Made by a program: the position numbers and the translations under genes. The notes beneath the pieces were generated by a model. It worked only from the letters and a program-made list of their open reading frames with translations. It was not told the DNA's origin and ran no database searches. This document shows positions 48,098 through 64,000 of a stretch of DNA of 64,000 bases, piece by piece; the first letter of the stretch is position 1, and every line of letters starts with the position of its first letter. The DNA comes from Mangrovimonas sp. ST2L15 (lineage in GTDB: Bacteria; Bacteroidota; Bacteroidia; Flavobacteriales; Flavobacteriaceae): positions 434,001-498,000 of the forward strand of contig NZ_LBIQ01000030.1 in assembly GCF_001280515.1 (NCBI RefSeq). The letters run 5' to 3'.

Positions 48098-49141
48098 TTA
48101 ATCTAAACTGTTTCCAATCCCAACAAGTGCTATTGAACCTAATAAACAGATAATTCCCAAATAAAGAAATTTTAAAGTAGATTTTTTTACACCTCTCCAT
48201 TCCTTTAGCACTATGCCCCATAAATTGCCTACAAGGATAATAGATGCCATATGAAGTATCCAACTACTTGCGCCGTTTCCTAATTTACTTTCTCCCATAC
48301 CATAAAAAAAGAATTGTAAAAACCAAATAGTACCTGCTAAAGCAGCAAAAAGATAGTTTTTTCTTAAGGGTTTACTTTTGTCTAAATACTGATTAAAACT
48401 TCTATTTTTAAAGTTTAATGCCATACACCAAATAAAATTTGTGGCAAAACCACCCCAAAGTAAAACAGCAAATGTGATGTTGTTTTGAAATAACGGGTTG
48501 ACTCCACGAGCCATAGATGCTTCTGCTAAAGGCTTTCCGGCTTCAATACCATAGTTAAAACAAGCACTCAAAATTCCAGAAAATATGGCAACGAAAATTC
48601 CTAATTTGATGTTGTATTCAGAATTGTTTTTGTCAGACTTTAAATCTTTATCTTTTAAGAACCCTGCTCTGCCTAAAAGTACAATAGAGATAACACATAA
48701 TAGAATACCTAAAAGCACCACTTGTCCACCTGTTTTAGATGCCATCATTGAGATAGTTTCCTTACCTTCTGTATTTGTAAAGTCATAATAGATAGCCGGT
48801 AAAAGCGATCCAAAAACAGATGTAAACCCTAAAATAACGGAATTACCTAGTGACATTCCTAAATATCTTATTCCTAAACCATATGTTAGACCTCCTATGC
48901 CCCATAGAACTCCAAATAGGATCACGTAAAAAATGGGGTAGTTACCACTAAACACAACACTTAGGAAGTCCGGAAAGAAAACCCATGCAGCTAAAAATGG
49001 AACTATCATCCAAGAGAAAAACCCTCCAACAATCCAGTAGTTTTCCCAATTCCATTCCTTAACTTTTTTAAACGGCATATAAAAACTTCCGGCAGCAACC
49101 CCTCCTGTAATATGAAATAGAAAACCTAATAAAATATTCAT
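48098..49141 (-). CDS. rhaT: L-rhamnose/proton symporter RhaT
   Basis: A 347-aa inner-membrane transporter of the RhaT/drug-metabolite superfamily with about ten hydrophobic segments. Signatures are the N-terminal GFLFHITGGVAAGSFYMPFKK, FGVLWGIGGLTYGLGIRYLGMSLG in TM3-4, and LAGTIWFLQFFFYGMGESKLG near the C-terminus. It imports L-rhamnose released by the rhamnosidase. The promoter at 49215-49257 carries the operator motif shared with the other rhamnose genes. Confidence 0.95.
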   Translation of the reverse strand: MNILLGFLFHITGGVAAGSFYMPFKKVKEWNWENYWIVGGFFSWMIVPFLAAWVFFPDFLSVVFSGNYPIFYVILFGVLWGIGGLTYGLGIRYLGMSLGNSVILGFTSVFGSLLPAIYYDFTNTEGKETISMMASKTGGQVVLLGILLCVISIVLLGRAGFLKDKDLKSDKNNSEYNIKLGIFVAIFSGILSACFNYGIEAGKPLAEASMARGVNPLFQNNITFAVLLWGGFATNFIWCMALNFKNRSFNQYLDKSKPLRKNYLFAALAGTIWFLQFFFYGMGESKLGNGASSWILHMASIILVGNLWGIVLKEWRGVKKSTLKFLYLGIICLLGSIALVGIGNSLD

Positions 49142-49214: not shown

Positions 49215-49257
49215 GCAAAGTAAAAATGATGCAATAAGGTTGCATCCTGTGGTATCC
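49215..49257 (-). promoter_or_regulatory. rhaT operator (49242-49257) and -7-like box (49215-49222)
   Basis: On the minus strand the operator reads GGATACCACAGGATGC, 12 of 16 matches to the regulon consensus. After exactly 19 bp comes TACTTTGC, a -7-like sequence that matches TAnnTTTG only after dropping one base (TACTTTG). A further half-copy, CACAGGATAC on the minus strand, lies at 49252-49261, so the site is a tandem arrangement. It is about 75-100 bp upstream of the rhaT start. Confidence 0.7.
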
Positions 49258-49281
49258 TGTGAAAAGATTTTTAAAGGCAGC

Positions 49282-50328
49282 TTATAAAGAATTTCTCTCT
49301 ATATATTTAAACACATTTTTCACTTTTTCCTTTTTATTTTTCAAAACCATATAGGCCGCAGTTTCACCCATAGCAATAAAATCGGTGCTTATAACTGTTA
49401 TTCCTAAAAGGTCTTTTAAAGGTGTTTCATTATACGAAATGACACCAATATCATCACCAAGATTTAAGTTTAAAGCCCTAATTTGTCTAATAAGATTTAC
49501 TAAATCCCTTTCCTGTATAGTGATAAAAAGGTCTTTTTCTTTAAATTCCATATCTTCATATACTTCACTTAAAATTTCAAAATCGAGATTATTTTCTGAG
49601 CAAAACTTGGTGAAACCATGTAGGATTCTTCTAGGATATGGGTGAACAGACTTATTAGGATAAACCAAAATAACCTTCTTGTAATTTTTTATCTTATGTA
49701 GTCCTTCATTCAAGGCATTATAGATGTCAAGTTTAAAATCTTGGTAGATGGAACCGTAATTTCCTTTAATATTAGGTTTGGTGTTATCTAACATGATTAA
49801 TTTATCCTTTGGGATTTTTTCAACTACTTCGAGAACCTTTTCTGTAGCACTAACATGGTTCTGATTTTCATCCCTAAAATGGGGCATTATAATATAATAA
49901 TCATGACCACCTAGATTTTTTTCCAAAGAACGAATAAACAATGTTTCATCACAATGGTATATGGATAAATGAACATGAGCATTGGGACCAATCTCATTTA
50001 CAAAACTGTTATAAATCATCATCTTGTAGGTGCTGGGTTTATTTACAAGAAAGAAGATATTTAGTTTTGAAATCAAGTCAGTTTTAGCGGTATAAAAGCC
50101 TTTCCCTTTAACAGATACAATAACCTGCTGTTTTTTTAACTGTTTATATGCTTTTTCAACTGTATCTCTAGAAAGTAGTAACTCCTCACTAAGTTCATTA
50201 ATGGAAGGAATCTTTTCACCTATTTTCAGCTTTCCCTTAGATATGTCATTAATAATTGAATCAATAATTTGTTTGTACTTTGGTACACGTGAGTTATTAT
50301 CTATTTGAATATTGATGTTATCAGACAT
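49282..50328 (-). CDS. GntR-family regulator with LacI-type sensor domain, likely rhamnose regulator
   Basis: A 348-aa transcription factor. The N-terminal winged helix-turn-helix is of GntR type (about residues 15-82; KLKIGEKIPSINELSEELLLSRDTVEKAYKQLK). The C-terminal part (about 90-345) resembles the periplasmic-binding-protein fold of LacI regulators (DDIGVISYNETPLKDLLGITVISTDFIAMGETAAYMVL), which binds a sugar. This pairing is common in Bacteroidota sugar regulators. It sits between rhaT and the divergent rhaEW and probably binds the operators at five promoters here. Effector (rhamnose or a catabolite) is inferred. Confidence 0.9.
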   Translation of the reverse strand: MSDNINIQIDNNSRVPKYKQIIDSIINDISKGKLKIGEKIPSINELSEELLLSRDTVEKAYKQLKKQQVIVSVKGKGFYTAKTDLISKLNIFFLVNKPSTYKMMIYNSFVNEIGPNAHVHLSIYHCDETLFIRSLEKNLGGHDYYIIMPHFRDENQNHVSATEKVLEVVEKIPKDKLIMLDNTKPNIKGNYGSIYQDFKLDIYNALNEGLHKIKNYKKVILVYPNKSVHPYPRRILHGFTKFCSENNLDFEILSEVYEDMEFKEKDLFITIQERDLVNLIRQIRALNLNLGDDIGVISYNETPLKDLLGITVISTDFIAMGETAAYMVLKNKKEKVKNVFKYIERNSL

Positions 50329-50428
50329 ATATAGGGATAATAATTTGGAAGAATTTTTATTTTCTAAAAATAAGACTTAATGCTTTATAAAATTTAATAA
50401 TTACAAAAAAAGTAAAATTGATTTAGCA

Positions 50429-50471
50429 GTATAGTACAGGATGCTACCTAAATCAATATCCAATATTTTTG
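50429..50471 (+). promoter_or_regulatory. rhaEW operator (50429-50444) and -7 box (50464-50471)
   Basis: Operator GTATAGTACAGGATGC is followed after exactly 19 bp by TATTTTTG, a full TAnnTTTG match, 29 bp before the rhaEW start. No TTG is present at the -33 position, which the operator covers. The same dyad is also about 100 bp upstream of the divergent regulator gene, so autoregulation is possible. Confidence 0.78.
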
Positions 50472-50499: not shown

Positions 50500-52596
50500 A
50501 TGGAAAAAACTTTTCAATATGTAGATTATTTATGGGATGAAGCTAAGGCAGCATCGCTTGGAGATGACCAAATCGCATTATTTCTCTATCGTTCAAACAT
50601 CCTGGGATCAGATTTAAGAATTACCAATTACGGTGGTGGAAATACAAGTTGTAAAACCATTGAAAAAGATCCTTTAACTAATGAAGATGTAGAGGTAATG
50701 TGGGTAAAGGGTTCCGGGGGAGATATTGGAACATTAACCAGCAAAGGGATTGCAGGACTCTATACAGAAAGACTAAGAAATCTTAAAAATGTATATAAAG
50801 GATTAGCAGATGAGGATAGAATGGTAGGGCTATTTAATCATTGTATTTATGATTTGGACAGTAAAGCACCTTCTATTGATACGCCTTTGCATGGATTGTT
50901 GCCATTCAAACATATAGATCATCTACACCCGGATGCCCTTATTGCTGTGGCTGCAGCTAAAGATAGTGAGAAGATTACCAAAGAAATTTGGGGAGACACT
51001 ATGGGCTGGGTTCCTTGGCAAAGACCTGGTTTTGATTTGGGTTTACAGTTAGAAAAATGTCTTAATGATAGTCCAGGTATTCGAGGTATTGTTCTAGGTA
51101 GCCATGGTCTTTTTACTTGGGGAGATACATCTTATGAATGTTATGTAAACAGCCTTGAAGTTATTGAAAAGGCATCATCTTATATTGAAAATAAGATTAA
51201 TGAAAATGGAAGTGTTTTTGGAGGACAAAAAATACAGTCTTTGCCTTCTGAGCTTAGAAAAGAAAAGGCTGCAGAGTTGATGCCTTTGTTACGAGGATTA
51301 GCATCTTCAGAGAACCAAATGATAGGTCATTTTACAGATACTGATGTTGTTTTAGAGTTTATTAATAGCCATGATTTAGAGAGATTAGCCCCTATGGGAA
51401 CCTCTTGTCCAGATCATTTCTTAAGAACCAAAATTCAACCGTTAATATTAAATCTTGAGACTTCTGAAGACATCACTGATACAAAAGCAATTCTAGAAAA
51501 ATTAGAACCTTCTTTTGAAACTTACAGACAGGAATATAAAGACTATTATAATACTTGTAAGCATGATAATAGTCCTGCAATGCGAGACCCTAATCCTGTA
51601 ATTATTATATATCCAGGAGTGGGTATGTTTAGCTTTGCTAAAAATAAACAAACATCAAGAGTTGCTAGTGAGTTTTATATTAATGCTATTAATGTTATGA
51701 GAGGTGCTGAAGCTATTTCAGAGTATACATCTCTTCCTAGACAAGAGGCATTTGATATTGAGTATTGGTTGTTAGAAGAGGCTAAATTACAACGTATGCC
51801 GGCAGAAAAACCATTGTCTCGAAAGGTGGCAATTGTTACAGGAGCTGCAGGAGGAATAGGTAAAGCCATAGCAGATAAATTAGTAGCTGAAGGAGCAAAT
51901 GTAGTTTTAACCGATATAAGTCAGGAAAATTTAAATAGTGCTTTAAAGACTTATAAAAGAGATGAAGCTTCTGTTGTACTTTGCGATGTAACGAAAGAAA
52001 CGTCTATTAATTATGCTTTTAAAGAAGCTTCTCTCGCCTTTGGAGGTGTAGATATTGTAGTTCATTCTGCTGGTTTAGCCATTTCAAAATCTTTAGAAGA
52101 CACAACGATTGATGATTGGGAACTTTTACAGAATGTATTAGTAAAAGGTCAATTTTTAATGGCGCAGAAAGGTGTTGAAATCATGAGAAAGCAAGGTTTT
52201 GGGGGAGATATTGTTAATATTGCAAGTAAGAATGGGTTAGTTTCTGGTCCAAACAATGTAGGGTATGGAACAGCTAAAGCAGCACAACAGCATATGACTA
52301 GATTATTGGCCGCAGAGTTAGGTAAAGACCACATTAAAGTCAATACTGTAAATCCTGATGGAGTTATTGTTGGAAGTAAAATTTGGGAAGGAGAGTGGGC
52401 AGAAGGAAGAGCTAAAGCCTATGGTATAAAAGTAGAAGATTTACCAGCTCATTACGCTAAAAGAAACCTTTTAAACGAAATCATACTCCCTGAAGATATA
52501 GCTAATGGCGTTTTTGCGTGTATTGGAGTTCTAGAAAAGAGTACAGGAAACACAATTAATGTAGATGGCGGTATGCCAAATGCATTTGTTAGATAG
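50500..52596 (+). CDS. rhaEW: Bifunctional rhamnulose-1-phosphate aldolase / lactaldehyde dehydrogenase
   Basis: A 698-aa fusion. The N-terminal part (to about 420) is a class II aldolase (adducin fold) with zinc-type His segments HIDHLHPDALIAV (about 138-150) and LGSHGLFTWGD (about 199). It splits L-rhamnulose 1-phosphate into DHAP and L-lactaldehyde. The C-terminal part (about 438-698) is a short-chain dehydrogenase with NAD motif TGAAGGIGK and catalytic YGTAK (Tyr588), which oxidises lactaldehyde to L-lactate. The fusion is the known RhaEW-type enzyme of several phyla. It is the first gene of the catabolic operon. Confidence 0.95.
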   Translation: MEKTFQYVDYLWDEAKAASLGDDQIALFLYRSNILGSDLRITNYGGGNTSCKTIEKDPLTNEDVEVMWVKGSGGDIGTLTSKGIAGLYTERLRNLKNVYKGLADEDRMVGLFNHCIYDLDSKAPSIDTPLHGLLPFKHIDHLHPDALIAVAAAKDSEKITKEIWGDTMGWVPWQRPGFDLGLQLEKCLNDSPGIRGIVLGSHGLFTWGDTSYECYVNSLEVIEKASSYIENKINENGSVFGGQKIQSLPSELRKEKAAELMPLLRGLASSENQMIGHFTDTDVVLEFINSHDLERLAPMGTSCPDHFLRTKIQPLILNLETSEDITDTKAILEKLEPSFETYRQEYKDYYNTCKHDNSPAMRDPNPVIIIYPGVGMFSFAKNKQTSRVASEFYINAINVMRGAEAISEYTSLPRQEAFDIEYWLLEEAKLQRMPAEKPLSRKVAIVTGAAGGIGKAIADKLVAEGANVVLTDISQENLNSALKTYKRDEASVVLCDVTKETSINYAFKEASLAFGGVDIVVHSAGLAISKSLEDTTIDDWELLQNVLVKGQFLMAQKGVEIMRKQGFGGDIVNIASKNGLVSGPNNVGYGTAKAAQQHMTRLLAAELGKDHIKVNTVNPDGVIVGSKIWEGEWAEGRAKAYGIKVEDLPAHYAKRNLLNEIILPEDIANGVFACIGVLEKSTGNTINVDGGMPNAFVR

Positions 52597-52718: not shown

Positions 52719-53996
52719 ATGAGAATTGATCTTAATCAAATTGCCGATTTAAATAAAAATCAATCAACTTTCGAGGTTGAATTAGAACTTTTAAGAAAGA
52801 AATATTCAAAGAAAAATATTTCAATAAACTCCATTATTGAAAAGCTAATCGAATTTCAAGTGGCCATCCCTAGTTGGGCTTTAGGTGCGGGAGGGACACG
52901 ATTTGGAAGGTTTTCTTATGGAGGTGAACCGGCTTCTTTAGAACAAAAATTAGATGATATAGGTGTTTTACATGCACTAACAAAATCAGCTGGAGCTGTC
53001 TCTCTTCACATACCATGGGATATACCTAAAGATGTACAAGCGTTAAAAGAAGTAGCCCAAAACCATGGGATTGTTTTTGATGCAATGAACTCTAATACAT
53101 TTCAAGATCAACCAAATGCTAACGAAAGCTATAAATTTGGATCTTTAAACAGTGTTCATGAAGCCTCTAGAAATTATGCAATAGAGCACAATTTAGAAGT
53201 TATTAAATTAGGAGAGCAATTAGGCTCAAAAAGTCTAACTGTTTGGTTAGCAGATGGGGCTAGTTTTCCAGGTCAATTAAACTTTCAAACAGCGTTAAAA
53301 AACACTGAAAGCAGTTTAAAGAATATTTATGAAGGCATGCCAAATGATTGGAAGTTGTTTATAGAGTATAAACCCTATGAACCTAATTTCTACAGTACCA
53401 CTATTCAAGATTGGGGTACTTCATTTATGTTAGCAAATGCCTGTGGAGAAAGAGCTTATACTCTGGTTGATCTAGGACATCACCTACCAAACACAAATAT
53501 CGAGCAAATAGTTGCTACTTTAATGCTAAGAGGTAAGTTAGGAGGGTTTCACTTCAATGATAGTAAGTATGGTGATGACGATCTTACCGTTGGTTCAATT
53601 AAACCTTATTCACTATTCTTAATTTTTAATGAGCTCGTTTATGGAATGGAAAATAACTCCAAAAACCCATATCCTGCTTGGATGATTGATGCTAGTCACA
53701 ACATAAAAGACCCTTTAGAAGATCTATTACAATCTTTGGATGCTATTTTATTGGCTTATGCTCAAGCATTATTAGTGGATCAAAAGGCACTAAGAGAAGC
53801 TCAAGCTGAAAGTGATGTAGTAGCTTGTCAAGAGATTTTACAAGATGCCTATAGAACTGATGTGAGGCCATTATTAATGGCAGCCAGAAGTAGGAGTGGT
53901 GCAGCTGTAAATCCTTTACAGGTTTATAGAGATTTAAAAGTTAGGGATGCTTTAATAAAAGAGCGAGGTATGAACAATAGGGCGACAGGACTTTAA
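52719..53996 (+). CDS. rhaI: L-rhamnose isomerase (RhaI type)
   Basis: A 425-aa TIM-barrel aldose-ketose isomerase converting L-rhamnose to L-rhamnulose. It resembles the Pseudomonas stutzeri-type enzyme: SWALGAGGTRFGRFSYGGEP near residue 52, FIEYKPYEPNFY with a metal-binding Glu, TLVDLGHHLPNTN with Asp and His ligands, and GGFHFNDSKYGDDDLTVGSI with the second metal site. It differs from the E. coli RhaA type in sequence. The gene is 122 bp after rhaEW and 15 bp before the kinase. Confidence 0.92.
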   Translation: MRIDLNQIADLNKNQSTFEVELELLRKKYSKKNISINSIIEKLIEFQVAIPSWALGAGGTRFGRFSYGGEPASLEQKLDDIGVLHALTKSAGAVSLHIPWDIPKDVQALKEVAQNHGIVFDAMNSNTFQDQPNANESYKFGSLNSVHEASRNYAIEHNLEVIKLGEQLGSKSLTVWLADGASFPGQLNFQTALKNTESSLKNIYEGMPNDWKLFIEYKPYEPNFYSTTIQDWGTSFMLANACGERAYTLVDLGHHLPNTNIEQIVATLMLRGKLGGFHFNDSKYGDDDLTVGSIKPYSLFLIFNELVYGMENNSKNPYPAWMIDASHNIKDPLEDLLQSLDAILLAYAQALLVDQKALREAQAESDVVACQEILQDAYRTDVRPLLMAARSRSGAAVNPLQVYRDLKVRDALIKERGMNNRATGL

Positions 53997-54011: not shown

Positions 54012-55391
54012 ATGAGTAAGAAGAAAGTCACTGCTATTTTTGATATTGGAAAAACAAATAAAAAGTTTTTTCTCTTTGATAAGAATTATCAAGAAGTTTA
54101 TAGATCCTATACCCAGCTTCCAAATACGGAAGATGAAGATGGCTATCCTACCGAAGATATTATCAAGCTACAGCAATGGATAAAAGATTCCTTTCATTTT
54201 ATATTAGATAGTGAAGAATATCAAGTTAAAAGCATCAATTTTTCAACTTATGGGGCTAGTCTAGTACATTTAGACCACCGTGGCAATGTATTAACTCCCC
54301 TTTATAACTATACAAAGCCAATAGAAAAAGAAATCACTGATGAGTTTTATAATTTATATGGGGATGAAATAAAAATAGCTACAGAAACTGCTTCGCCACA
54401 AGCAGGTATGTTAAACTCGGGTCTTCAACTATTTTGGTTAAAAAGAAAAGATCCTGATACTTATAAAAAAATAAAATATTCTTTACATCTCCCGCAGTAT
54501 CTATCTTTTTTATTTACAGGAATACCTGTAAGTGAGTACACGTCTATAGGATGCCATACTAATTTATGGGATTATAGAAAAAATGATTACCACCATTGGG
54601 TATATGAAGAAGGATTTGATAAATTACTAGCACCTATTGTTCCAACATCTGCAAGCATTAATACGTCTTATAAAGACAAAAAAATAAAAATAGGAGTTGG
54701 TATTCATGATAGCTCTTCAGCCTTGTTGCCATACATTTTAAGTAAGAAAAAGCCTTTTTTATTATTGTCTACCGGTACCTGGAGTATATCTTTAAACCCT
54801 TTTAATGAGCAAGATTTATCTGAAGATGATATAAAAAATAACTGTCTTAACTATTTAAGGATTGATGGGAAACGGGTAAAAGCTTCTCGCTTTTTTATGG
54901 GCAATGAATACCGTATTCAAGTTGAAAAACTGGGTAACCATTATGGCAAGGAATATGGGTATCATAGAAATGTAAAGTTTGATAAGGAACTCTATCTAGA
55001 GCTTATAGAAAAGCCTTCTATCTATTTTAAATTTGAAGGAATTTCGTTACAGCGAAAGAAACTTCACAAAACAGATCTTAAACCATTTAATACATTTGAA
55101 GAGGCTTTTCATCAATTAATGATTGAGCTTATGGAGTTACAAATACATACCATTAAAAACGCCATAGGAAATTCTGATATCAATACCATTTATATTGATG
55201 GAGGATTTACAGATAATGATGTGTTTATGAAATTAATGTCACTTCATTTTAGTGAGTTTCGGGTACTTGCAACAAAGTCACCTTTAGGGTCTGCTTTAGG
55301 TGCTGCTATGGTAACTTCAAAAAAGGAAATAGATTCTAGGTTTTTAAAAGAAAACTATCAAATGAAAAAACTAATCCCAACGTTATTATAA
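54012..55391 (+). CDS. rhaB: Rhamnulokinase-type FGGY carbohydrate kinase
   Basis: A 459-aa FGGY-family sugar kinase. The N-terminal phosphate-1 motif is FDIGKTNKKFFLFDKN, the central ATPase-fold segment is LLSTGTWSISLNP, and the C-terminal adenosine region is IYIDGGFTDNDVFMKLMS. Neighbours predict L-rhamnulose as substrate, giving L-rhamnulose 1-phosphate; by sequence alone, fuculose or xylulose kinase cannot be excluded. It is 15 bp after rhaI and 4 bp before the lactate dehydrogenase. Confidence 0.85.
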   Translation: MSKKKVTAIFDIGKTNKKFFLFDKNYQEVYRSYTQLPNTEDEDGYPTEDIIKLQQWIKDSFHFILDSEEYQVKSINFSTYGASLVHLDHRGNVLTPLYNYTKPIEKEITDEFYNLYGDEIKIATETASPQAGMLNSGLQLFWLKRKDPDTYKKIKYSLHLPQYLSFLFTGIPVSEYTSIGCHTNLWDYRKNDYHHWVYEEGFDKLLAPIVPTSASINTSYKDKKIKIGVGIHDSSSALLPYILSKKKPFLLLSTGTWSISLNPFNEQDLSEDDIKNNCLNYLRIDGKRVKASRFFMGNEYRIQVEKLGNHYGKEYGYHRNVKFDKELYLELIEKPSIYFKFEGISLQRKKLHKTDLKPFNTFEEAFHQLMIELMELQIHTIKNAIGNSDINTIYIDGGFTDNDVFMKLMSLHFSEFRVLATKSPLGSALGAAMVTSKKEIDSRFLKENYQMKKLIPTLL

Positions 55392-55395
55392 TCTT

Positions 55396-56544
55396 ATGGC
55401 TTTTCCATTTAACACTGAATATCCGTCTATAGAGTCTTTAAGAGAGAGGGCTCAAAAGCGCATGCCCAAATTTGCTTTCGAGTATTTAGATGGTGGATGT
55501 AATGAAAACATCAATATTAAAAGGAATACGAGTGAAATAAGGGATATTCAATTAAAGCCTTGGTATTTAAAAAACTATAAGGATTCACATTTAAAAACTA
55601 AACTATTCGGGATAGAATATGATGCTCCCTTTGGAATATCCCCAGTGGGATTACAAGGATTGATGTGGCCCAATGCCACTGAAATTTTAGCTAAGGCTTC
55701 TTTAAAGCATAACATTCCATTTATATTAAGTACAGTTACAACAAGTAGTATTGAAAGAGTGAGCGAATTAACTGAAGGGCGAGCTTGGTTTCAACTTTAT
55801 AATCCTAAAGAAGATTGGTTGCGAAATGACATTATCCAAAGAGCAGAAGATGCGGGCTGTCCTGTATTAGTATTACTTTGTGATGTGCCCACATTCGGCT
55901 ATCGTCCAAAAGAAATCAGGAATGGTTTAGCAATGCCTCCACAAGTCAACTTTAGGAATGTTTTACAAGTCTTAAATAGGCCTCATTGGGCATTACAAAC
56001 ATTGAAGCATGGAGCTCCAAAATTTGCCACTATGGAAAAGTATATGGAGAATGGGATGAGCATAAAACAATTAGGTAAATGGATGAATGCAACCTTTTCA
56101 GGTAGATTAAATGCAGAAAAGATTAAACCTATTCGTGATTTATGGAAAGGGAAATTGGTCTTAAAAGGAGTGGCATCAGAAGAGGATACGCAAGAAGCTA
56201 TAAAATTAGGATTTGACGGGATTATAGTGTCAAATCATGGAGGAAGACAGTTAGACGCGGGAGAATCAACTATAAAACCATTGTCTAGAATTGCTGAAAA
56301 ATATAAAGATCAAATCACAGTTATGATGGATAGTGGCATCAGAACAGGTCCAGATATTGCTCGAGTTATGAGTAGTGGTGCAGATTTTTCTTTTATGGGA
56401 AGATCTTTTATGTATGGTGTTGGTGCTTTAGGTGAAGAAGGAGGAGATCACACGATTGCGATGTTGAAAATGCAATTACAACAAGTTTTGGAACAATTGT
56501 GTTGTGAAAAAGTGTCTGACTTGCCCAACTTTAAAATAAGTTAA
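55396..56544 (+). CDS. lldD: FMN-dependent L-lactate dehydrogenase (LldD-like alpha-hydroxy-acid oxidase)
   Basis: A 382-aa flavoenzyme oxidising L-lactate to pyruvate, linked to the respiratory chain. The FMN-dependent alpha-hydroxyacid dehydrogenase signatures are present: FEYLDGGCNENI near the N-terminus, FGISPVGLQGLMWPNAT, LVLKGVAS (FMN-binding Lys near residue 257), the active-site SNHGGRQLDAG near residue 281 (catalytic His), and MDSGIRTGPDIARVM. The fused aldolase-dehydrogenase upstream makes L-lactate, so this enzyme finishes rhamnose breakdown to pyruvate. A terminator follows. Confidence 0.9.
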   Translation: MAFPFNTEYPSIESLRERAQKRMPKFAFEYLDGGCNENINIKRNTSEIRDIQLKPWYLKNYKDSHLKTKLFGIEYDAPFGISPVGLQGLMWPNATEILAKASLKHNIPFILSTVTTSSIERVSELTEGRAWFQLYNPKEDWLRNDIIQRAEDAGCPVLVLLCDVPTFGYRPKEIRNGLAMPPQVNFRNVLQVLNRPHWALQTLKHGAPKFATMEKYMENGMSIKQLGKWMNATFSGRLNAEKIKPIRDLWKGKLVLKGVASEEDTQEAIKLGFDGIIVSNHGGRQLDAGESTIKPLSRIAEKYKDQITVMMDSGIRTGPDIARVMSSGADFSFMGRSFMYGVGALGEEGGDHTIAMLKMQLQQVLEQLCCEKVSDLPNFKIS

Positions 56545-56633: not shown

Positions 56634-58295
56634 TTAATTCTGAAATATCTCTGGATATTTTCTAATGAAATATACGGGAGTACAACTCCATGCATGACAG
56701 TAACTATTTACTGGGTAAAATTGATAGGGTGAAAGTTCTTCATTGTTTGGGTCATAAACTTCCCAGAATGTGTCTGCGCCTTTTTTCACCATACCGCCCC
56801 AATAATTTTCAATCAATTCTCTAGCATCTTCTTTTAAGTCACTATCTATTAAAGCTTGTACGTAATAATGATACAAATAGGGGCCTCCAGGTTTTATAGC
56901 ATTCTTATAGTCTTGTAAATTGTGCAAAATGTTTCTGGCTTTTTTAGGCTTAACAACATCTGCTAAAATCATCCAAGATTGTGAAGCATAGGATACTTGC
57001 CTGTCCTTACCGCTAATAAAAAGACCTAAATCTTTATCGTATAGATGTTTTAACGCCCCAGATGACATGCTTTCGATCCATTTAGGTAGTTGTTTTACCT
57101 CACTCTTTTTATTTAATTTTTCTGCTAAATCCAAGGTGCCTTTCATGCTGTAAATCATAATACCTTGTAGAGCAGTTTGTCTATCTAATTGATCATTCCA
57201 ATCTACAAACAACCACCATTTGTTTTTTACTGCTTTGTCGGCATTAAACACACCATCTTCTCCTAAATAAGTAGTTATATGATCCATTTGTCTTTTAGCA
57301 ACTGGCCAAAGGTCATTGGCAGTTTCAGTATCCCCAGTGGCATCCAAATAATCTCTGAGAATGACATTGTATAGAATGGCATAATCAAACAAAAAAGGTG
57401 AGCCCTCTTGGGCGTGTGGGCTTGGATATTCAAATACATTAGAATATAAAAAGCCATCTTCTTGTGCGAGGGCAGCAATAAGATATAAACAACGTTTAGT
57501 GAGCATATGGTTTTCGTATGAATACATATTAGCTAACGCTTGAAGATAAAGGTCTCCTATCCAAAGTCTTCGATCTCTTTTTGGGCCGTCCTCAAAAACG
57601 GTCTGCATACATTCACTTAGTGTATTTAATCCAACTTGGTCAATTTTTTTAATTAATTCAGATGAGGTTGCACTTAAGTCTGTAATTTCACTTGTGGCCG
57701 AAGTTGTTGCTTTTACAGAGGCTTTAGTCAAAGAAAAATCAAAATAAGGAGAGCTCCCTAAGACTTCAACTTTCACATATCTAAAGGATAATCTCCTTTC
57801 TAGGGTTATTGTTGAAGGAATACTCATTACTGTTACTATTTCGTCTTGTAACCAAGCACGACTTAATCCTCCTGGGTATGGGTCAAAAGGGACAGATACT
57901 TCTGAAGGCACCTCCCCAAACGTAAATTTTAATCTAACTGGAGCATCAGTGACCCCAAATAACGTATTTAATGAAAAAGTAAACTGCCCTGTAATGTGTT
58001 CTCCAAAATCCAGTATGATTCCAGATTGGGTTTTTAGAGATGTCTTATAAAAGTCATCTAGTCCTCCAATAGATTCTGTTTTATAGACTTGAAAAGCGTT
58101 AGTATCTTTAATAGTTTTTACTAAGTCTATAGGGTGTTTTATAGTCTCTTTTAAAGAAGGGATATTGTTTTCTGCTATATCCAACCATTTGCGCCTTTCA
58201 TCTGGACCATAATAATCTTGAGAAAACCCCAAGAAATTAGATAACAAAATGGATAAAATTAAAAACCATTTAAAGTTTGAAAAAGAGTGTTTCAT
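56634..58295 (-). CDS. Exported GH78-like alpha-L-rhamnosidase
   Basis: A 553-aa exported glycoside hydrolase with a signal peptide (residues 1-25). It has an N-terminal beta domain (IILDFGEHITGQFTFSLNT), then an (alpha/alpha)6-barrel. The characteristic EDGPKRDRRLWIGDL segment lies near residues 234-248, as in GH78 rhamnosidases, and contains the acidic catalytic region. WLFVDWNDQLDRQTALQGIMIYSM is the second conserved part. The protein is shorter than typical bacterial GH78 enzymes (often 700-1000 aa). Rhamnosidase activity is supported by the neighbouring rhamnose genes and shared operator but not proved. Confidence 0.83.
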   Translation of the reverse strand: MKHSFSNFKWFLILSILLSNFLGFSQDYYGPDERRKWLDIAENNIPSLKETIKHPIDLVKTIKDTNAFQVYKTESIGGLDDFYKTSLKTQSGIILDFGEHITGQFTFSLNTLFGVTDAPVRLKFTFGEVPSEVSVPFDPYPGGLSRAWLQDEIVTVMSIPSTITLERRLSFRYVKVEVLGSSPYFDFSLTKASVKATTSATSEITDLSATSSELIKKIDQVGLNTLSECMQTVFEDGPKRDRRLWIGDLYLQALANMYSYENHMLTKRCLYLIAALAQEDGFLYSNVFEYPSPHAQEGSPFLFDYAILYNVILRDYLDATGDTETANDLWPVAKRQMDHITTYLGEDGVFNADKAVKNKWWLFVDWNDQLDRQTALQGIMIYSMKGTLDLAEKLNKKSEVKQLPKWIESMSSGALKHLYDKDLGLFISGKDRQVSYASQSWMILADVVKPKKARNILHNLQDYKNAIKPGGPYLYHYYVQALIDSDLKEDARELIENYWGGMVKKGADTFWEVYDPNNEELSPYQFYPVNSYCHAWSCTPVYFIRKYPEIFQN

Positions 58296-58326: not shown

Positions 58327-58369
58327 TAAAGATACTTCAATACAGAAAAATTGGTGTCCTGTACTATGC
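58327..58369 (-). promoter_or_regulatory. GH78-like gene operator (58354-58369) and -7 box (58327-58334)
   Basis: On the minus strand GCATAGTACAGGACAC is followed after exactly 19 bp by TATCTTTA, seven of eight to TAnnTTTG. It is 32-74 bp upstream of the start codon. The divergent GH3 gene has its own copy 33 bp away. Confidence 0.75.
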
Positions 58370-58401
58370 TGAATGACTTATTTCATTAATTAATTATCAC
58401 A

Positions 58402-58444
58402 GTATAGTACAGGATACTTTTAGCGTGATAGAAAATTAAGTTTG
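58402..58444 (+). promoter_or_regulatory. GH3 gene operator (58402-58417) and -7 box (58437-58444)
   Basis: GTATAGTACAGGATAC, the best copy, with outer AGTAT/ATACT arms. After exactly 19 bp comes TAAGTTTG, a full TAnnTTTG match, 24 bp before the GH3 start codon. Confidence 0.78.
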
Positions 58445-58467: not shown

Positions 58468-60777
58468 ATGAAATATAAAAGTTTACTAAATATCCTATCT
58501 GCGATATTTGTTTTAGGTGCTATTTCTTGCAAAGCACAAAATGTACCACAACTTGGCAAGAATCCAATAAGTGAGGTCATTAAGGCCATGACCAATGAAG
58601 AAAAAGCGCATATGCTTCTTGGTTCAGAAATGTTTGGCGACTCTATTCATGGGGAGCCTAGAATGAAAGCGCCTGGTTCTGCAGGAACAACTTATACCAT
58701 TCCAAGATTGAATATTCCTGCTTTATTATTAGCAGACGGGCCTGCAGGTGTAAGAATTGCTCCAACTAGACCAAATGACTCTCATACATATTATGGTACG
58801 GCATTTCCTGTAGGGACTGCATTGGCCTCATCTTGGAATACAGAATTGGTAGAGCATGTGGGTGTCGCCATAGGAGAAGAAGTAAGAGATTATGGCATAG
58901 ATGTTTTGTTAGCGCCAGCACTAAATATACATAGAAACCCTCTTTGCGGGAGGAATTTTGAATATTATTCAGAAGATCCATTGGTTTCAGGAGAAATCGC
59001 AGCAGCATATATTAATGGGGTTCAATCAAATGGTGTGGGAACATCTGTCAAACATTTTGTAGCCAATAACCAAGAAACAAATCGCTTTTCGATTGATGCT
59101 CAAATTAGTGAAAGGGCAATGCGAGAAATTTATTTAAAGGGGTTTGAAATGGCCATTAAAAAGGCGGAACCTTGGACCGTGATGTCTTCCTATAATAAGG
59201 TAAATGGGAAATATACATCAGAAAGTCATGATATTCTGCAAGATATTTTGAGAAATGAATGGGGTTTTAAAGGTTTTGTGATGTCCGACTGGTTTGGAGG
59301 CTACGAGAGTTTAGAAACCATAGGAAATGGAAATAGTAATGTTGTAGCACAAATGAATGCCGGAAATGATGTATTAATGCCAGGAACTCAAAATCAATAC
59401 AATTTACTCCTTGAAGCAATAAATAGTGGTGAGCTTTCGGAAGAGGTTGTCAACAGAAATATTGAAGCCATTTTAAAAGTGGTTCTTCAATCACCTGTTT
59501 TTAAAAATCAAAAATTTTCCAACACTCCAGATTTAAAGGGGCATGCAAAGATTGCAAGAGAATCTGCCGCAGAAAGTATGGTTTTATTAAAAAATAATGA
59601 TGGCATTCTTCCATTTTCAACAAAATCTAAATCTGTGGCTCTTTTTGGGACAACCTCATACAATTTTATTTCAGGAGGTACTGGAAGTGGAGATGTTAAT
59701 GAAGCCTATACAGTTTCTTTATTAGAAGGCTTAAATAATTCAAGTGTTAAAACAAGTAATTTTATTGAAGAAGCCTATGTGGGTTATGTGAAAGAAGAAG
59801 CCGAAAAAGAAAGAAAAAGGAGGGAGGCAAACGGAGCTATATTTACTCCGCCTAAAAGAATGGTGGAATTGGATGTGCCAAACAATTTAATAGATCAATC
59901 TGCTAAACAAGATGCTATGGCTATTATTACCATTGGTAGAAATTCTGGAGAGTTTGGGGATCGAGACATTAATGAGGATTTTTATTTAGCACAAGATGAG
60001 ATTAAATTGATTGAGAATGTTTCCAAGGCATTCCATGAGCAAAACAAAAAGGTAGTGGTCATTTTAAATATTGGAGGAGTTATAGAAACATTTACATGGA
60101 AGGATAAAGTAGATGCCATTCTATTAACTTGGCAATTAGGACAAGAAGGGGGGAATGCCGTTGCAGATGTACTTTTAGGAAAGGTTAACCCATCAGGAAA
60201 ATTACCTATGACTTTTCCTGTAGATTATAACAACCATCTTTCATCCGTAGGGTGGCCAGGAATGCCGGTAAGTGACCCCAAAGAAATCGATTACAGTGAA
60301 GACATCTATGTAGGGTACCGCTACTTTGACACCTTTAACATTGAACCCTCTTATGAGTTTGGATTTGGTAAATCTTATACATCGTTTACCCTTTCGGACC
60401 TTTACATAAGTGATAGGATAATCCAAAAGGAGGTGAAAATAAAAGTAAAGGTTACTAATAATGGTTCTGTTTCTGGAAAAGAAGTTGTGCAGTTATATGT
60501 ATCTGCCCCTGGAATAAGCTTAAAAAAGCCTAATATGGAATTAAAAGGGTTTGAAAAGACAAAAATATTAAAACCAGGACAAAGTCAAATCCTTGAATTT
60601 ATAATTACATTAGATGATTTGGTTTCTTTTGATGATAATTTAAATGCTTGGGTTGCAGAAAATGGGAACTATAAAGTTTACCTAGGTAATTCTTCTAAGA
60701 ACTTAATCTTAACTGAAACTTTTGATCTTAAAAAGGAAACAATCGTGGAAGAAGTTCATGATTTATTTAAGAATTAA
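58468..60777 (+). CDS. Glycoside hydrolase family 3 lipoprotein
   Basis: A 769-aa exported enzyme with lipobox LGAISC (Cys21). The GH3 N-terminal barrel includes KHFVANNQETNRFSIDAQISERAMREIYLKGF and the nucleophile Asp274 in GFVMSDWFGG. The second domain (about 370-590) and a fibronectin-III-like C-terminal domain (SGKEVVQLYVSAP) follow. GH3 members are beta-glucosidases or beta-xylosidases; the true substrate is uncertain. Sharing the operator with rhamnose genes suggests it acts on the non-rhamnose sugar of a rhamnoside or of a rhamnose-containing polysaccharide. Confidence 0.9.
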   Translation: MKYKSLLNILSAIFVLGAISCKAQNVPQLGKNPISEVIKAMTNEEKAHMLLGSEMFGDSIHGEPRMKAPGSAGTTYTIPRLNIPALLLADGPAGVRIAPTRPNDSHTYYGTAFPVGTALASSWNTELVEHVGVAIGEEVRDYGIDVLLAPALNIHRNPLCGRNFEYYSEDPLVSGEIAAAYINGVQSNGVGTSVKHFVANNQETNRFSIDAQISERAMREIYLKGFEMAIKKAEPWTVMSSYNKVNGKYTSESHDILQDILRNEWGFKGFVMSDWFGGYESLETIGNGNSNVVAQMNAGNDVLMPGTQNQYNLLLEAINSGELSEEVVNRNIEAILKVVLQSPVFKNQKFSNTPDLKGHAKIARESAAESMVLLKNNDGILPFSTKSKSVALFGTTSYNFISGGTGSGDVNEAYTVSLLEGLNNSSVKTSNFIEEAYVGYVKEEAEKERKRREANGAIFTPPKRMVELDVPNNLIDQSAKQDAMAIITIGRNSGEFGDRDINEDFYLAQDEIKLIENVSKAFHEQNKKVVVILNIGGVIETFTWKDKVDAILLTWQLGQEGGNAVADVLLGKVNPSGKLPMTFPVDYNNHLSSVGWPGMPVSDPKEIDYSEDIYVGYRYFDTFNIEPSYEFGFGKSYTSFTLSDLYISDRIIQKEVKIKVKVTNNGSVSGKEVVQLYVSAPGISLKKPNMELKGFEKTKILKPGQSQILEFIITLDDLVSFDDNLNAWVAENGNYKVYLGNSSKNLILTETFDLKKETIVEEVHDLFKN

Positions 60778-60827: not shown

Positions 60828-60879
60828 ATTCGAAAAAGCGAAAACGATATAGCATTTCACAAAAAAAGTAAATGAAGCC

Positions 60880-60922
60880 TCATAGTACAGGATAGTTTTA
60901 CCTTAAAATACTGTTAATATTG
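60880..60922 (+). promoter_or_regulatory. susC-like gene operator (60880-60895) and -7 box (60915-60922)
   Basis: TCATAGTACAGGATAG is followed after exactly 19 bp by TAATATTG, seven of eight to TAnnTTTG. The start codon is 48 bp further. Confidence 0.73.
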
Positions 60923-60969: not shown

Positions 60970-63900
60970 ATGAACAGAAAATTATTAATTCAAAAAAGGC
61001 TCTTTATAGTTACTTTTTTCTTAGGCTGTCTCTTTGGTTTTAGCCAGGAAAGAATAATTACTGGTACTATAGTTGATGAATCAGGGATTACAGTACCAGG
61101 AGCTAATGTCATTTTAAAGAATACTTCAATAGGGACGATGACTGATATGGATGGCCAATATTCTCTTGAAATTCCAGAAGAAGGTAGTGTGCTGGTTATT
61201 TCATTCATGGGTTACAAACCACAAGAGATTGTAATTGGTTCTCGAAGTACCATTGATGTTCAATTGGAGCCAAATTTAGAGATGTTGGATGATGTGGTGA
61301 TAGTAGCTTATGGCTCACAGAGTAAAAGGGATGTCACTGGATCTGTTCAAACAGTTGATAGTGATGAGTTTAAAAATGAGCCTGTGCCACAACTCGCTCA
61401 GAAATTACAAGGAAAAATTACTGGAGTTCAAATTACTCAAAATACCGGTATTCCTGGACAGGGTATGACTGTAAGAGTTAGGGGAGCGGCATCAATCTCT
61501 GCTGGAAGTGATCCACTTTATGTTGTTGATGGCTTTCCTCTTCAAGGAAATATTGCAAATATTAATCCAGATGAGATTGAAAGTATTTCCATTTTGAAAG
61601 ATGCTGCTTCAACATCTTTGTATGGTTCAAGAGCATCTAATGGGGTCGTATTAATTACCACAAAAAAAGGTAAACATGGTAAAAACAAATTTGGATTAAG
61701 TGTTTACACGGGAATACAATCTATTCCAGAAAACGGAAAACCAGATATGATGAATGCCCGCGAGTTTGCTCAGTTTAAAAAAGAAATTGCCATTGAAAGA
61801 GGACAGGATGTACCTGAAATCTATCAAAATCCTGAGCAATATGGAGAAGGAACAAATTGGTTCAATGCAGTAACAAGGCCAGGAATTGTTCAAAATTATA
61901 CAGTATCCTTTTCAAATGCTAATGATAAATCAAGTACCTCAGTTATTGCAGGGTTTCATAAAACGGAAGGGGTTCTTTTAAATTCTGATTATACACGTAT
62001 TTCTCTTCGTGCGAATACAGACTATAAGTTTAATGACAGAATAAAGGTTGGATTCAATATTGCTCCTACATATACAAATAATAATACACCCCAGAGTGAT
62101 GGTATTTGGTATAATTCACCAAGTATAGTGCAATCTGCTATCCTTACCAATCCATTAGCTCCATATAAAAATCCAGATGGGTCCATACCTTTAGCTGTAG
62201 GCTGGGAATATGGAACAGCTGCTTCACCTAACTGGTATAACCAAGTGCAAATAGTTAAAAACCAATCTGAGTCATTAGGGTTGCTATCAAATGCATTTAT
62301 CGAAATAGATGTGTTAAAAGATTTGACTTTCAAGTCAATGGTAGGGGTTGACGCCGGTCATAGTGTTTCAGATTTCTTCTCTCCTTCAACAGCGGGAAGT
62401 ATTTTTAATCCACCTAATGAAAGTGATACATCAAGAATAAGTGGTTCTCATTCCAATAGTTGGGCGTATTCTTGGCTTTGGGAGAATACATTAAGTTACA
62501 AAAAATCTTTTGGAGATCACAATTTTGATATTTTAGGAGGATATACGTTACAAGCTGCACGTTCTGAAAGTGCTTCTATGTCGGGAACTGGATTTCCTGA
62601 CAATAGAGTTGAAACTCTTAATGCTGCCACTGAAATTACTGGAACTAGCGATATCCAAGAGTGGAGTTTGACTTCATTTGTTGCTAGAGTAAATTATAAC
62701 TATAAAAATAAATACCTATTAACAGGGGCTATTAGAAGAGATGGATCCTCAAGGTTTGGCCAAGATAACAAATGGGGTAATTTCCCTTCTGTCTCTGCAG
62801 GTTGGGTGGTTTCTGAAGAATCATTTATCCCTGAAAGCAAAGTTTTATCTTTCTTAAAGTTAAGAGGATCATTTGGTGTTACAGGAAACAATAATATAGG
62901 GAATTACCAGCAATATGCTAATGTCGTTCCGACTAATAATCCATTCAATGATGTGCTTTTAAATGGTAGTAGCTTGGCCGGATTAAATAATACGGAACTT
63001 GGCTGGGAAACCAGTGAGCAACTGGATGCAGGTATCGATATCAACTTTTTTGATAACAGAGTTCAATTCACTTACGATTATTATAATAAAGTGACTGATA
63101 ACCTTCTTTATTCGGTAGAAATCCCAATTTCTTCAGGGTTTTACAACTATGTAACCAATATTGGAAAAATAAAATTCTGGGGACATGAATTTACTTTGAA
63201 TACAATAAACATTGATAAAGAGTTCAAATGGAATACTAACTTTAATATTTCTTTTAATCGAAATGAAGCTCTTGAGTTAGGTACAGCTAATTCTGCAATC
63301 TATGGAGACATGACAATTACAGAAGTAGGTCAACCACTTGGTCAGTTATATGGATTGGTTTGGGATGGTATCTACGAAACTCAAGAAGAATTTGACAATT
63401 CTCCACATCATGAAGGAGCAGAGGTAGGAAGTGTCAAGTATCTTGACATGAATGGAGATGGAGTAGTTACAAATGATGATAGGGACCGAAGACCTATAGG
63501 TAATACAGCACCTAAGTTCAATTATGGATTTACAAATACGTTTTCATATAAGAATATAGATCTATCTATAGTTTGTCAAGGGGCGCATGGGCATAAAATT
63601 GCAAATATGTCTGAAAGATTTACAGGTAATTTAGATGGTGCATTCAACGTGTTAAAAGATCTTGAAAATAGATGGAGGTCTGAAGATAATCCTGGTAATG
63701 GTCGTTGGGGGAAAGCATCTGGAAATACTGGTCCTGAAAGAGACTGGGCTAGTTCGAAATGGGTGTATGACGCAAGTTATTTAACAATTAAAAATATAAC
63801 TCTCGGATATAGCTTTACAGAATCTAAGTATGATTATTTAAAGGGATTGCGAATTTATACGAGTTTGCAACAAGCCTTCGTTTTTACCGATTATCCAGGA

Positions 63901-64000
63901 GGGAACCCAGAAGTATCTGCGGGAGTTGGACTGTTTTCAGGTGTTGATAACACAACCTATCCCGTGCCAAGAACATTAACTTTTGGTGTTAATTACAATT
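60970..64000 (+). CDS. SusC-like TonB-dependent receptor, 3' end beyond the window
   Basis: The outer-membrane half of a SusCD glycan importer; 1010 codons are present and the end is cut. Order: signal peptide (about 1-26, ending GFSQE), carboxypeptidase-regulatory-like domain (about 27-105, with VDESGITVPGANVILKNTS), SusC-type plug start VVIVAYGSQSKRDVTGSV, the plug end YGSRASNGVVLITTKKG near residues 218-234, and then barrel strands. The susD partner is expected immediately beyond the right edge. Its upstream operator ties it to the rhamnose genes. Confidence 0.95.
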   Translation, partial: MNRKLLIQKRLFIVTFFLGCLFGFSQERIITGTIVDESGITVPGANVILKNTSIGTMTDMDGQYSLEIPEEGSVLVISFMGYKPQEIVIGSRSTIDVQLEPNLEMLDDVVIVAYGSQSKRDVTGSVQTVDSDEFKNEPVPQLAQKLQGKITGVQITQNTGIPGQGMTVRVRGAASISAGSDPLYVVDGFPLQGNIANINPDEIESISILKDAASTSLYGSRASNGVVLITTKKGKHGKNKFGLSVYTGIQSIPENGKPDMMNAREFAQFKKEIAIERGQDVPEIYQNPEQYGEGTNWFNAVTRPGIVQNYTVSFSNANDKSSTSVIAGFHKTEGVLLNSDYTRISLRANTDYKFNDRIKVGFNIAPTYTNNNTPQSDGIWYNSPSIVQSAILTNPLAPYKNPDGSIPLAVGWEYGTAASPNWYNQVQIVKNQSESLGLLSNAFIEIDVLKDLTFKSMVGVDAGHSVSDFFSPSTAGSIFNPPNESDTSRISGSHSNSWAYSWLWENTLSYKKSFGDHNFDILGGYTLQAARSESASMSGTGFPDNRVETLNAATEITGTSDIQEWSLTSFVARVNYNYKNKYLLTGAIRRDGSSRFGQDNKWGNFPSVSAGWVVSEESFIPESKVLSFLKLRGSFGVTGNNNIGNYQQYANVVPTNNPFNDVLLNGSSLAGLNNTELGWETSEQLDAGIDINFFDNRVQFTYDYYNKVTDNLLYSVEIPISSGFYNYVTNIGKIKFWGHEFTLNTINIDKEFKWNTNFNISFNRNEALELGTANSAIYGDMTITEVGQPLGQLYGLVWDGIYETQEEFDNSPHHEGAEVGSVKYLDMNGDGVVTNDDRDRRPIGNTAPKFNYGFTNTFSYKNIDLSIVCQGAHGHKIANMSERFTGNLDGAFNVLKDLENRWRSEDNPGNGRWGKASGNTGPERDWASSKWVYDASYLTIKNITLGYSFTESKYDYLKGLRIYTSLQQAFVFTDYPGGNPEVSAGVGLFSGVDNTTYPVPRTLTFGVNYN

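Follow-up and report, generated by a model that had tools for sequence, protein, structure and literature searches.

A tandem-repeat operator at a fixed distance before the -7 box of flavobacterial rhamnose promoters and a GntR/LacI-type candidate activator

The rhamnose locus and its regulator

The stretch of DNA analyzed (the window) comprised 64,000 nt of Mangrovimonas sp. ST2L15, positions 434,001-498,000 of the forward strand of contig NZ_LBIQ01000030.1 (GCF_001280515.1). The genes of its rhamnose locus are listed in Table 1 with five operators (S1 to S5) and their -7 boxes. The bit scores of the operators were obtained with a matrix from 80 other flavobacterial loci, the window being excluded from training.

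Table 1. Genes, operators and -7 boxes of the rhamnose locus (positions within the window)
Feature	Position	Strand	Match or score
rhaT, L-rhamnose/proton symporter	48098..49141	-	PF06379; NF010024 over cut-off
S4 -7 box TACTTTGC, matches TAnnTTGY (SM5 type)	49215..49222	-	
S4 operator CAGGATACCA-CAGGATGC, before rhaT	49242..49259	-	27.6 bits
Regulator gene, GntR winged helix (residues 17-79) and LacI-like sensor	49282..50328	-	PF00392, PF13377 over cut-off
S1 operator, tandem repeat CAGTATAGTA-CAGGATGC, before rhaEW-type operon	50427..50444	+	28.2 bits
S1 -7 box TATTTTTG, 22 bp past the T of operator GGAT	50464..50471	+	
rhaEW-type bifunctional rhamnulose-1-phosphate aldolase/dehydrogenase	50500..52596	+	NF006191, TIGR02632 over cut-off
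L-rhamnose isomerase-like gene	52719..53996	+	Top NCBIfam match TIGR02629, under its cut-off
FGGY kinase, rhamnulokinase-like	54012..55391	+	PF00370; top NCBIfam match TIGR02627, far under cut-off
FMN-dependent L-lactate dehydrogenase-like gene	55396..56544	+	PF01070
GH78 alpha-L-rhamnosidase	56634..58295	-	PF21104, PF17389
S5 -7 box TATCTTTA	58327..58334	-	
S5 operator, before GH78 rhamnosidase gene	58354..58371	-	25.7 bits
S2 operator, before GH3 gene	58400..58417	+	27.7 bits
S2 -7 box TAAGTTTG	58437..58444	+	
GH3 glycosidase	58468..60777	+	PF00933, PF01915
S3 operator, before SusC-like TonB-dependent receptor gene	60878..60895	+	22.1 bits
S3 -7 box TAATATTG	60915..60922	+	
SusC-like TonB-dependent receptor, extends to window end	60970..64000	+	PF07715, PF13715

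The regulator has an N-terminal GntR winged helix-turn-helix (PF00392, 53.9 bits against a cut-off of 27) and a C-terminal LacI/GalR-like sugar-binding domain (PF13377, 33.9 bits against 26.5). Its AlphaFold model had a mean pLDDT of 85.4, and the top Foldseek matches of the model were LacI-family proteins such as CcpA, RbsR, LacI and PurR. The top NCBIfam match was PdxR, covering the DNA-binding part only and far under the cut-off. No Pfam match to an aminotransferase-like C-terminal domain was found in the regulator, the LacI-like domain being present instead.

The operator and its distance to the -7 box

The operator consists of a like half-site given twice in the same direction, 10 bp apart, with the logo C A K N A Y A S Y A / C A G G A Y R S. 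The halves of S4 are CAGGATAC and CAGGATGC. Over 88 non-redundant sites a direct repeat of period 10 scored highest (+6.2) and one of period 5 scored +2.7. A palindromic operator was rejected, every inverted-repeat centre scoring below 0 over the same sites. No T followed GGAT in any of 60 sites, and a TTG can therefore not be part of the site. With the -7 box at -12 to -5, as mapped in the available text on Flavobacterium psychrophilum (PMC9723704), the operator spans about -49 to -32 and is centered at -40.5.

The matrix, trained without the window, recovered exactly S1 to S5 in the 64 kb at 22-28 bits, and the scan found no further operator of at least 10 bits there. The -7 T lies 22 bp past the last base of CAGGAY in all five promoters. 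Two of the boxes are strict TAnnTTTG, two are one base off and that of S4, TACTTTGC, is TAnnTTGY. TTG starting 14-31 bp before the TA was absent from 5/5. The sequence-only reading had claimed this geometry for all five promoters and was borne out, except that it began the S1 operator at 50429, whereas the conserved unit begins 2 bp earlier. Relaxed boxes are found at about 1% of the non-coding positions of the window's rhamnose region (22/2046), so boxes at one common offset are not due to chance. Exact RTAGTACAGGAY has five matches in the genome of ST2L15, four in the window and one elsewhere. A chance-site reading was discarded, the sole match outside the window sitting within a 784-aa reading frame.

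A perfect 10-bp inverted repeat, ATTGATTTAG / CTAAATCAAT (50417-50426 and 50448-50457), flanks the S1 operator, its right arm lying within the spacer. It was rejected as a general feature, as no more than 7 bp of such pairing was seen in any of 27 related promoters.

The relatives comprised 80 loci (L081-L160) with regulators 67-78% identical. In the upstream regions of these loci the 7-mer ACAGGAY alone was followed by a box, defined as TA plus at least three of TTTG, at exactly +22 in 73 of 98 matches, with 6 of 98 at the runner-up offset. Among non-redundant matches the box was at +22 in 60 of 85. A search of nine whole genomes for ACAGGAY, a gap and TANNTTTG gave 146 matches, 23 with a gap of 21 and 13 with a gap of 31 (one repeat unit more), while the other gaps averaged 3.8 matches and none exceeded 8. 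Only these two counts, the 7-mer count and the nine-genome gap count, are free of any choice of training sites.

The operator matrix was built from 60 good sites of the relatives' loci. At 14 bits or more it found 119 intergenic sites (48.7 per 100 kb), whereas coding DNA held 3 (0.22 per 100 kb). Of the intergenic operators 117 faced a gene, and under a lenient test in divergent regions 125 of 127 sites pointed at a gene. In counts that are partly circular, because the training sites had been picked for a box at +22, TA was at +22 in 113 of 117 operators and TANNTT in 109 (at most 7 at any other offset), the box as defined for ACAGGAY (TAnnTTTG, one mismatch being allowed in TTTG) was there in 101, and after removal of sites more than 70% alike the spacing was kept in 58 of 66. 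An operator preceded rhaEW in 58/58 of the loci where the rhaEW start was present, with the box at +22 in 57/57 tallied and in L109 besides. The SusC promoters of the tally had TA at +22 in 2/2 and TANNTT in 0/2.

The 109 distinct spacers between operator and box showed 32% identity where 29% was expected. Inheritance of a single copied promoter cassette was rejected on these values, the spacers being barely more alike than composition predicts. The spacer is thus conserved in length and hardly in sequence.

SM5 boxes, TAnnTTGY, form a class in the start-site map of F. psychrophilum, as given in the available text of PMC9723704. Boxes of this type rather than TAnnTTTG were seen at rhaT (TACTTTGC) and in relatives (TAATTTGT, TAACTTGT and TAGATTGC; L110, L123, L130, L154), and the regulator may thus act at promoters of two classes.

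The operator-plus-box pattern was found in 11 of 13 genomes with a regulator at least 44% identical, a cut picked after the identity values had been seen, and in 0 of 106 others (Fisher p 7e-14; 119 genomes, that of ST2L15 included). It gave 34 matches, against 1 for a backward control. The operator was absent from the regulator's own promoter in 79 of 80 loci, being present in one. By Pfam, ten further target genes among the 117 downstream encode two esterase types, GH2, GH28, GH31, GH106, DUF4861 (three) and a TonB receptor. They are mutually unrelated and would fit a rhamnose/rhamnogalacturonan regulon. The three DUF4861 genes under the operator (L091 8556-9740, L102 16953-18140, L125 12933-14219) suggest a role of this family in the use of rhamnose polymers. 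The regulator gene of Epilithonimonas caeni (L123 10001-11044) has one in-frame stop, which marks a pseudogene or a sequence error, and L123 was omitted from alignment A2 for this reason. As judged from sequence, the pattern extends well beyond the window over flavobacterial loci.

The -33 slot and the paralogous regulators

The available text of PMC7366714 gives TTTG as the -33 motif in Bacteroides fragilis and reports none found in Flavobacterium johnsoniae. In the ST2L15 genome 30 of the 42 tRNAs were used, 16 of those 30 having no strict box. The 14 tRNA promoters with a strict box had TTG 20-24 bp before the TA in 12 cases, with a peak at 21-22, while a control interval 26-30 bp before the TA had it in 0/14. 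None of 110 operator promoters had TTG in the -33 slot; the T-R-S of the operator occupies the same slot as the TTG of the tRNA promoters. The -33 slot is therefore real and is filled by the operator. Besides these, 106 unmapped TAnnTTTG boxes from the window and the 80 loci were considered, and 7.5% of them had TTG. As most of these boxes are also without TTG, its loss is a weak argument when taken alone and was rejected as stand-alone evidence, and the tRNA promoters were taken as the yardstick. TTG had been supposed to be normal in Bacteroidota promoters, which held for the boxed tRNA promoters of the ST2L15 genome and was not apparent in the unmapped boxes.

In a tree of 59 family members a supported clade of 28 holds the rhamnose type, and another, of 16, the galactose type. 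The galactose paralogue (L077 9208-10197; C24:981207 in ST2L15's own genome, G000) heads gntR-galK-galT, is 38% identical to the rhamnose regulator and has the same domains. Of 299 genomes of the family, 64 gave a match to it at E 1e-80. Its operator, CCTACYAGTA-CCTACYAGTT, was found on its own promoter in 47/47 regions, 31 times forward and 16 times reverse. The distance from operator centre to box was 14.5-32.5 bp, with one of 101.5 bp, and the commonest value occurred in 7/47. The 47 regions (27 loci and 20 genome stretches) were drawn from 65 matches, 18 being left out for convenience, and mostly represent one orthologous operon per genome. As a multi-promoter control the galactose operator was rejected because it has almost one site per genome: when up to one mismatch was allowed, 9 matches turned up, in 8 of 10 genomes. 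By its sequence, a layout with both orientations and varied distance is that expected of a repressor.

Xylose-type paralogues, with xylB-like and xylA genes, had CC[AG]GAACAGAACAG in six of eight loci (L238, L239, L241, L242, L243, L066). This operator begins 3-4 bp past the -7 box, a nearly constant distance as judged by eye, and its position fits a repressor. The six promoters appear to be orthologous promoters of one gene. The nearly fixed spacing at a repressor-like place means that fixed spacing alone is not proof of activation. The sequence-only reading had argued that a repressor needs no fixed spacing. The varied distances of the galactose paralogue agree with that argument and the six xylose-type promoters limit it. 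For the distant paralogues L244-L250 no clear operator was seen, partly by eye. Two genomes (G046 and G005) carry four or five regulators of the GntR/LacI-type family each. In G046 two of them lie side by side (L066 13480 and 14827), with like operators near some.

Proposed mechanism, alternatives and known systems

Class II activator sites are centered near -41.5, overlap the -35/-33 region and keep a constant spacing and, where the site is asymmetric, a constant orientation. The rhamnose operators have such a layout in their span, centre, spacing and direction (-49 to -32, -40.5, TA at +22 in 113/117, 125/127 facing the gene). It is likely that the GntR/LacI-type regulator is a class II-like activator which replaces the -33 contact. 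The regulator would bind the 18-bp tandem repeat with one winged-helix head on each CAGGAYAG-like half-site, and both heads would face the same way along the DNA because the half-sites are one helical turn apart. Bound at about -49 to -32 it would abut RNA polymerase, probably at the C-terminal domain of alpha or region 4 of sigma, and would thereby substitute for the absent -33 TTG and allow a promoter with only a -7 box to fire. The LacI-like domain would sense L-rhamnose or a catabolite, which would most likely trigger either binding or the polymerase contact.

Activation is favored by the use of one spacing over unrelated promoters with spacers that are hardly alike. It is also favored by sites that face the gene, are centered near -40.5, fill the TTG slot and are missing from the regulator's own gene in 79/80 loci. 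The galactose paralogue of the same genome and its orthologues, with their variable repressor layout, argue in the same direction. Counting against it are the AraR prototype, described as a repressor, the spacing of the xylose-type operators and the F. johnsoniae promoters, reported to have no -33 motif. The earlier proposal of the GntR protein as a candidate activator therefore gains support from the comparative tests, most of which speak for it and one of which, the xylose type, is neutral to adverse.

A repressor confined to this position is unlikely. It would sit at -49 to -32 and keep sigma off the -33 region until rhamnose is present, and the spacing would be fixed if only that position represses well or if the operator end doubles as a weak -33 element. 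The -33 region does lie under the operator, AraR, the prototype of GntR/LacI regulators, is described as repressing, and the xylose-type paralogues bind, as predicted, at a nearly fixed, repressor-like place. However, a promoter that has no TTG should already be weak, leaving little to gain from occlusion, and the base after GGAT, never T in the 60 sites, leaves no room for a TTG. The upstream and downstream half-sites are alike, and the regulator by itself therefore accounts for the sequence. The repressor-like layout of the galactose relative tolerates varied spacing and both orientations.

Dual action at the same promoter is rather improbable. The ligand-free regulator would hold polymerase closed and inactive, and the same bound dimer would activate with rhamnose. 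A fixed contact geometry would suit either sign of control, and the MocR-type PdxR is described as activating one operon while repressing a divergent gene (PMC5320631), but opposite effects at two genes are not dual action at one promoter. That another, unlinked regulator or an alternative sigma factor uses the site and the GntR gene is a mere neighbor is very improbable: the S4 box and several of the relatives' boxes do resemble SM5 TAnnTTGY rather than the standard box and the link of the GntR protein to the site is a predicted one, but operator and regulator co-occur over 119 genomes and 101/117 boxes match TAnnTTTG when one mismatch in TTTG is allowed.

For the family as a whole, the balance leans moderately towards a reading in which the xylose and galactose relatives repress and the shift of a 10-bp tandem-repeat operator to the -33 slot turned the rhamnose clade into a dedicated activator. 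A same-facing dimer would there take the sigma -33 contact for the whole rhamnose/rhamnogalacturonan regulon in Flavobacteriaceae and Weeksellaceae. If this is true, a family of sugar repressors can switch sign through relocation of the site. To our knowledge little is known of how activators act with the unusual Bacteroidota sigma factor. The rhamnose promoters would offer a clean system, in which many natural promoters share a short asymmetric site at a single distance and the sister regulators have repressor-like layouts. They suggest that, in a phylum with many sugar regulators, the geometry of the operator may tell activators from repressors. The candidate operator before rhaEW (58/58 loci) is also a possible rhamnose-inducible promoter part for flavobacteria.

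Activation had been called unusual for a GntR protein with a LacI-like sensor. This agrees with the AraR precedent, described as a repressor, and no contrary case was among the literature matches listed. Neither a GntR/LacI-type activator nor a GntR rhamnose regulator in Bacteroidota was among the matches listed, which consisted of titles and abstract starts, most subscription papers lying beyond the search. The chief paper on the rhamnose regulon (PMC3870299) nowhere uses the word GntR in its main text.

Rhamnose genes of Bacteroides are described as activated by RhaR (BT3768, AraC family; PMC3870299, PMC3878776), which belongs to the same phylum and also has a tandem-repeat operator. Unlike the GntR regulator, RhaR is of an unrelated protein family and its repeat has a period of 21 bp rather than 10. 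The galactose paralogue resembles the rhamnose regulator in that a 10-bp repeat can likewise be read in its operator. It differs in that its own promoter carries the operator, whose orientation and distance to the box vary within the group. FucR of B. theta (BT1272) is a repressor. It is likened to the rhamnose regulator by description only, as a GntR regulator of a deoxyhexose pathway in the same phylum (PMC3878776, available text).

The usual GntR operator is described as a palindrome, NyGTNxACNy, with FarR, NagQ and NanR as direct-repeat exceptions (PMC4494728). The rhamnose operator departs from the usual form, inverted repeats scoring negative and the period-10 direct repeat positive, and in view of these exceptions a direct repeat does not exclude GntR membership. 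AraR of Bacillus subtilis is described as having the same combination of GntR winged helix and LacI-like sugar sensor and as controlling sugar-use genes, and its DNA-binding domain (4egy) was among the PDB sequence matches of the rhamnose regulator. AraR is a palindrome-binding arabinose repressor according to the available text of PMC4666351 and PMC4218819. The rhamnose operator, unlike that of AraR, is a direct repeat rather than a palindrome and lies before the -7 box at one fixed distance. The rhamnose regulator is therefore classed as sharing the domain architecture of AraR rather than as an AraR orthologue.

The MocR subfamily (GabR, PdxR, TauR) has the GntR winged helix, often direct-repeat operators, and known activators, as described in PMC5320631. 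Its sensors are aminotransferase-like, whereas that of the rhamnose regulator is LacI-like. By analogy the rhamnose regulator may share the mode of action of a MocR activator while lying outside that subfamily. On the sources available, the closest precedent in mechanism is the MocR branch and the closest in domains is AraR.
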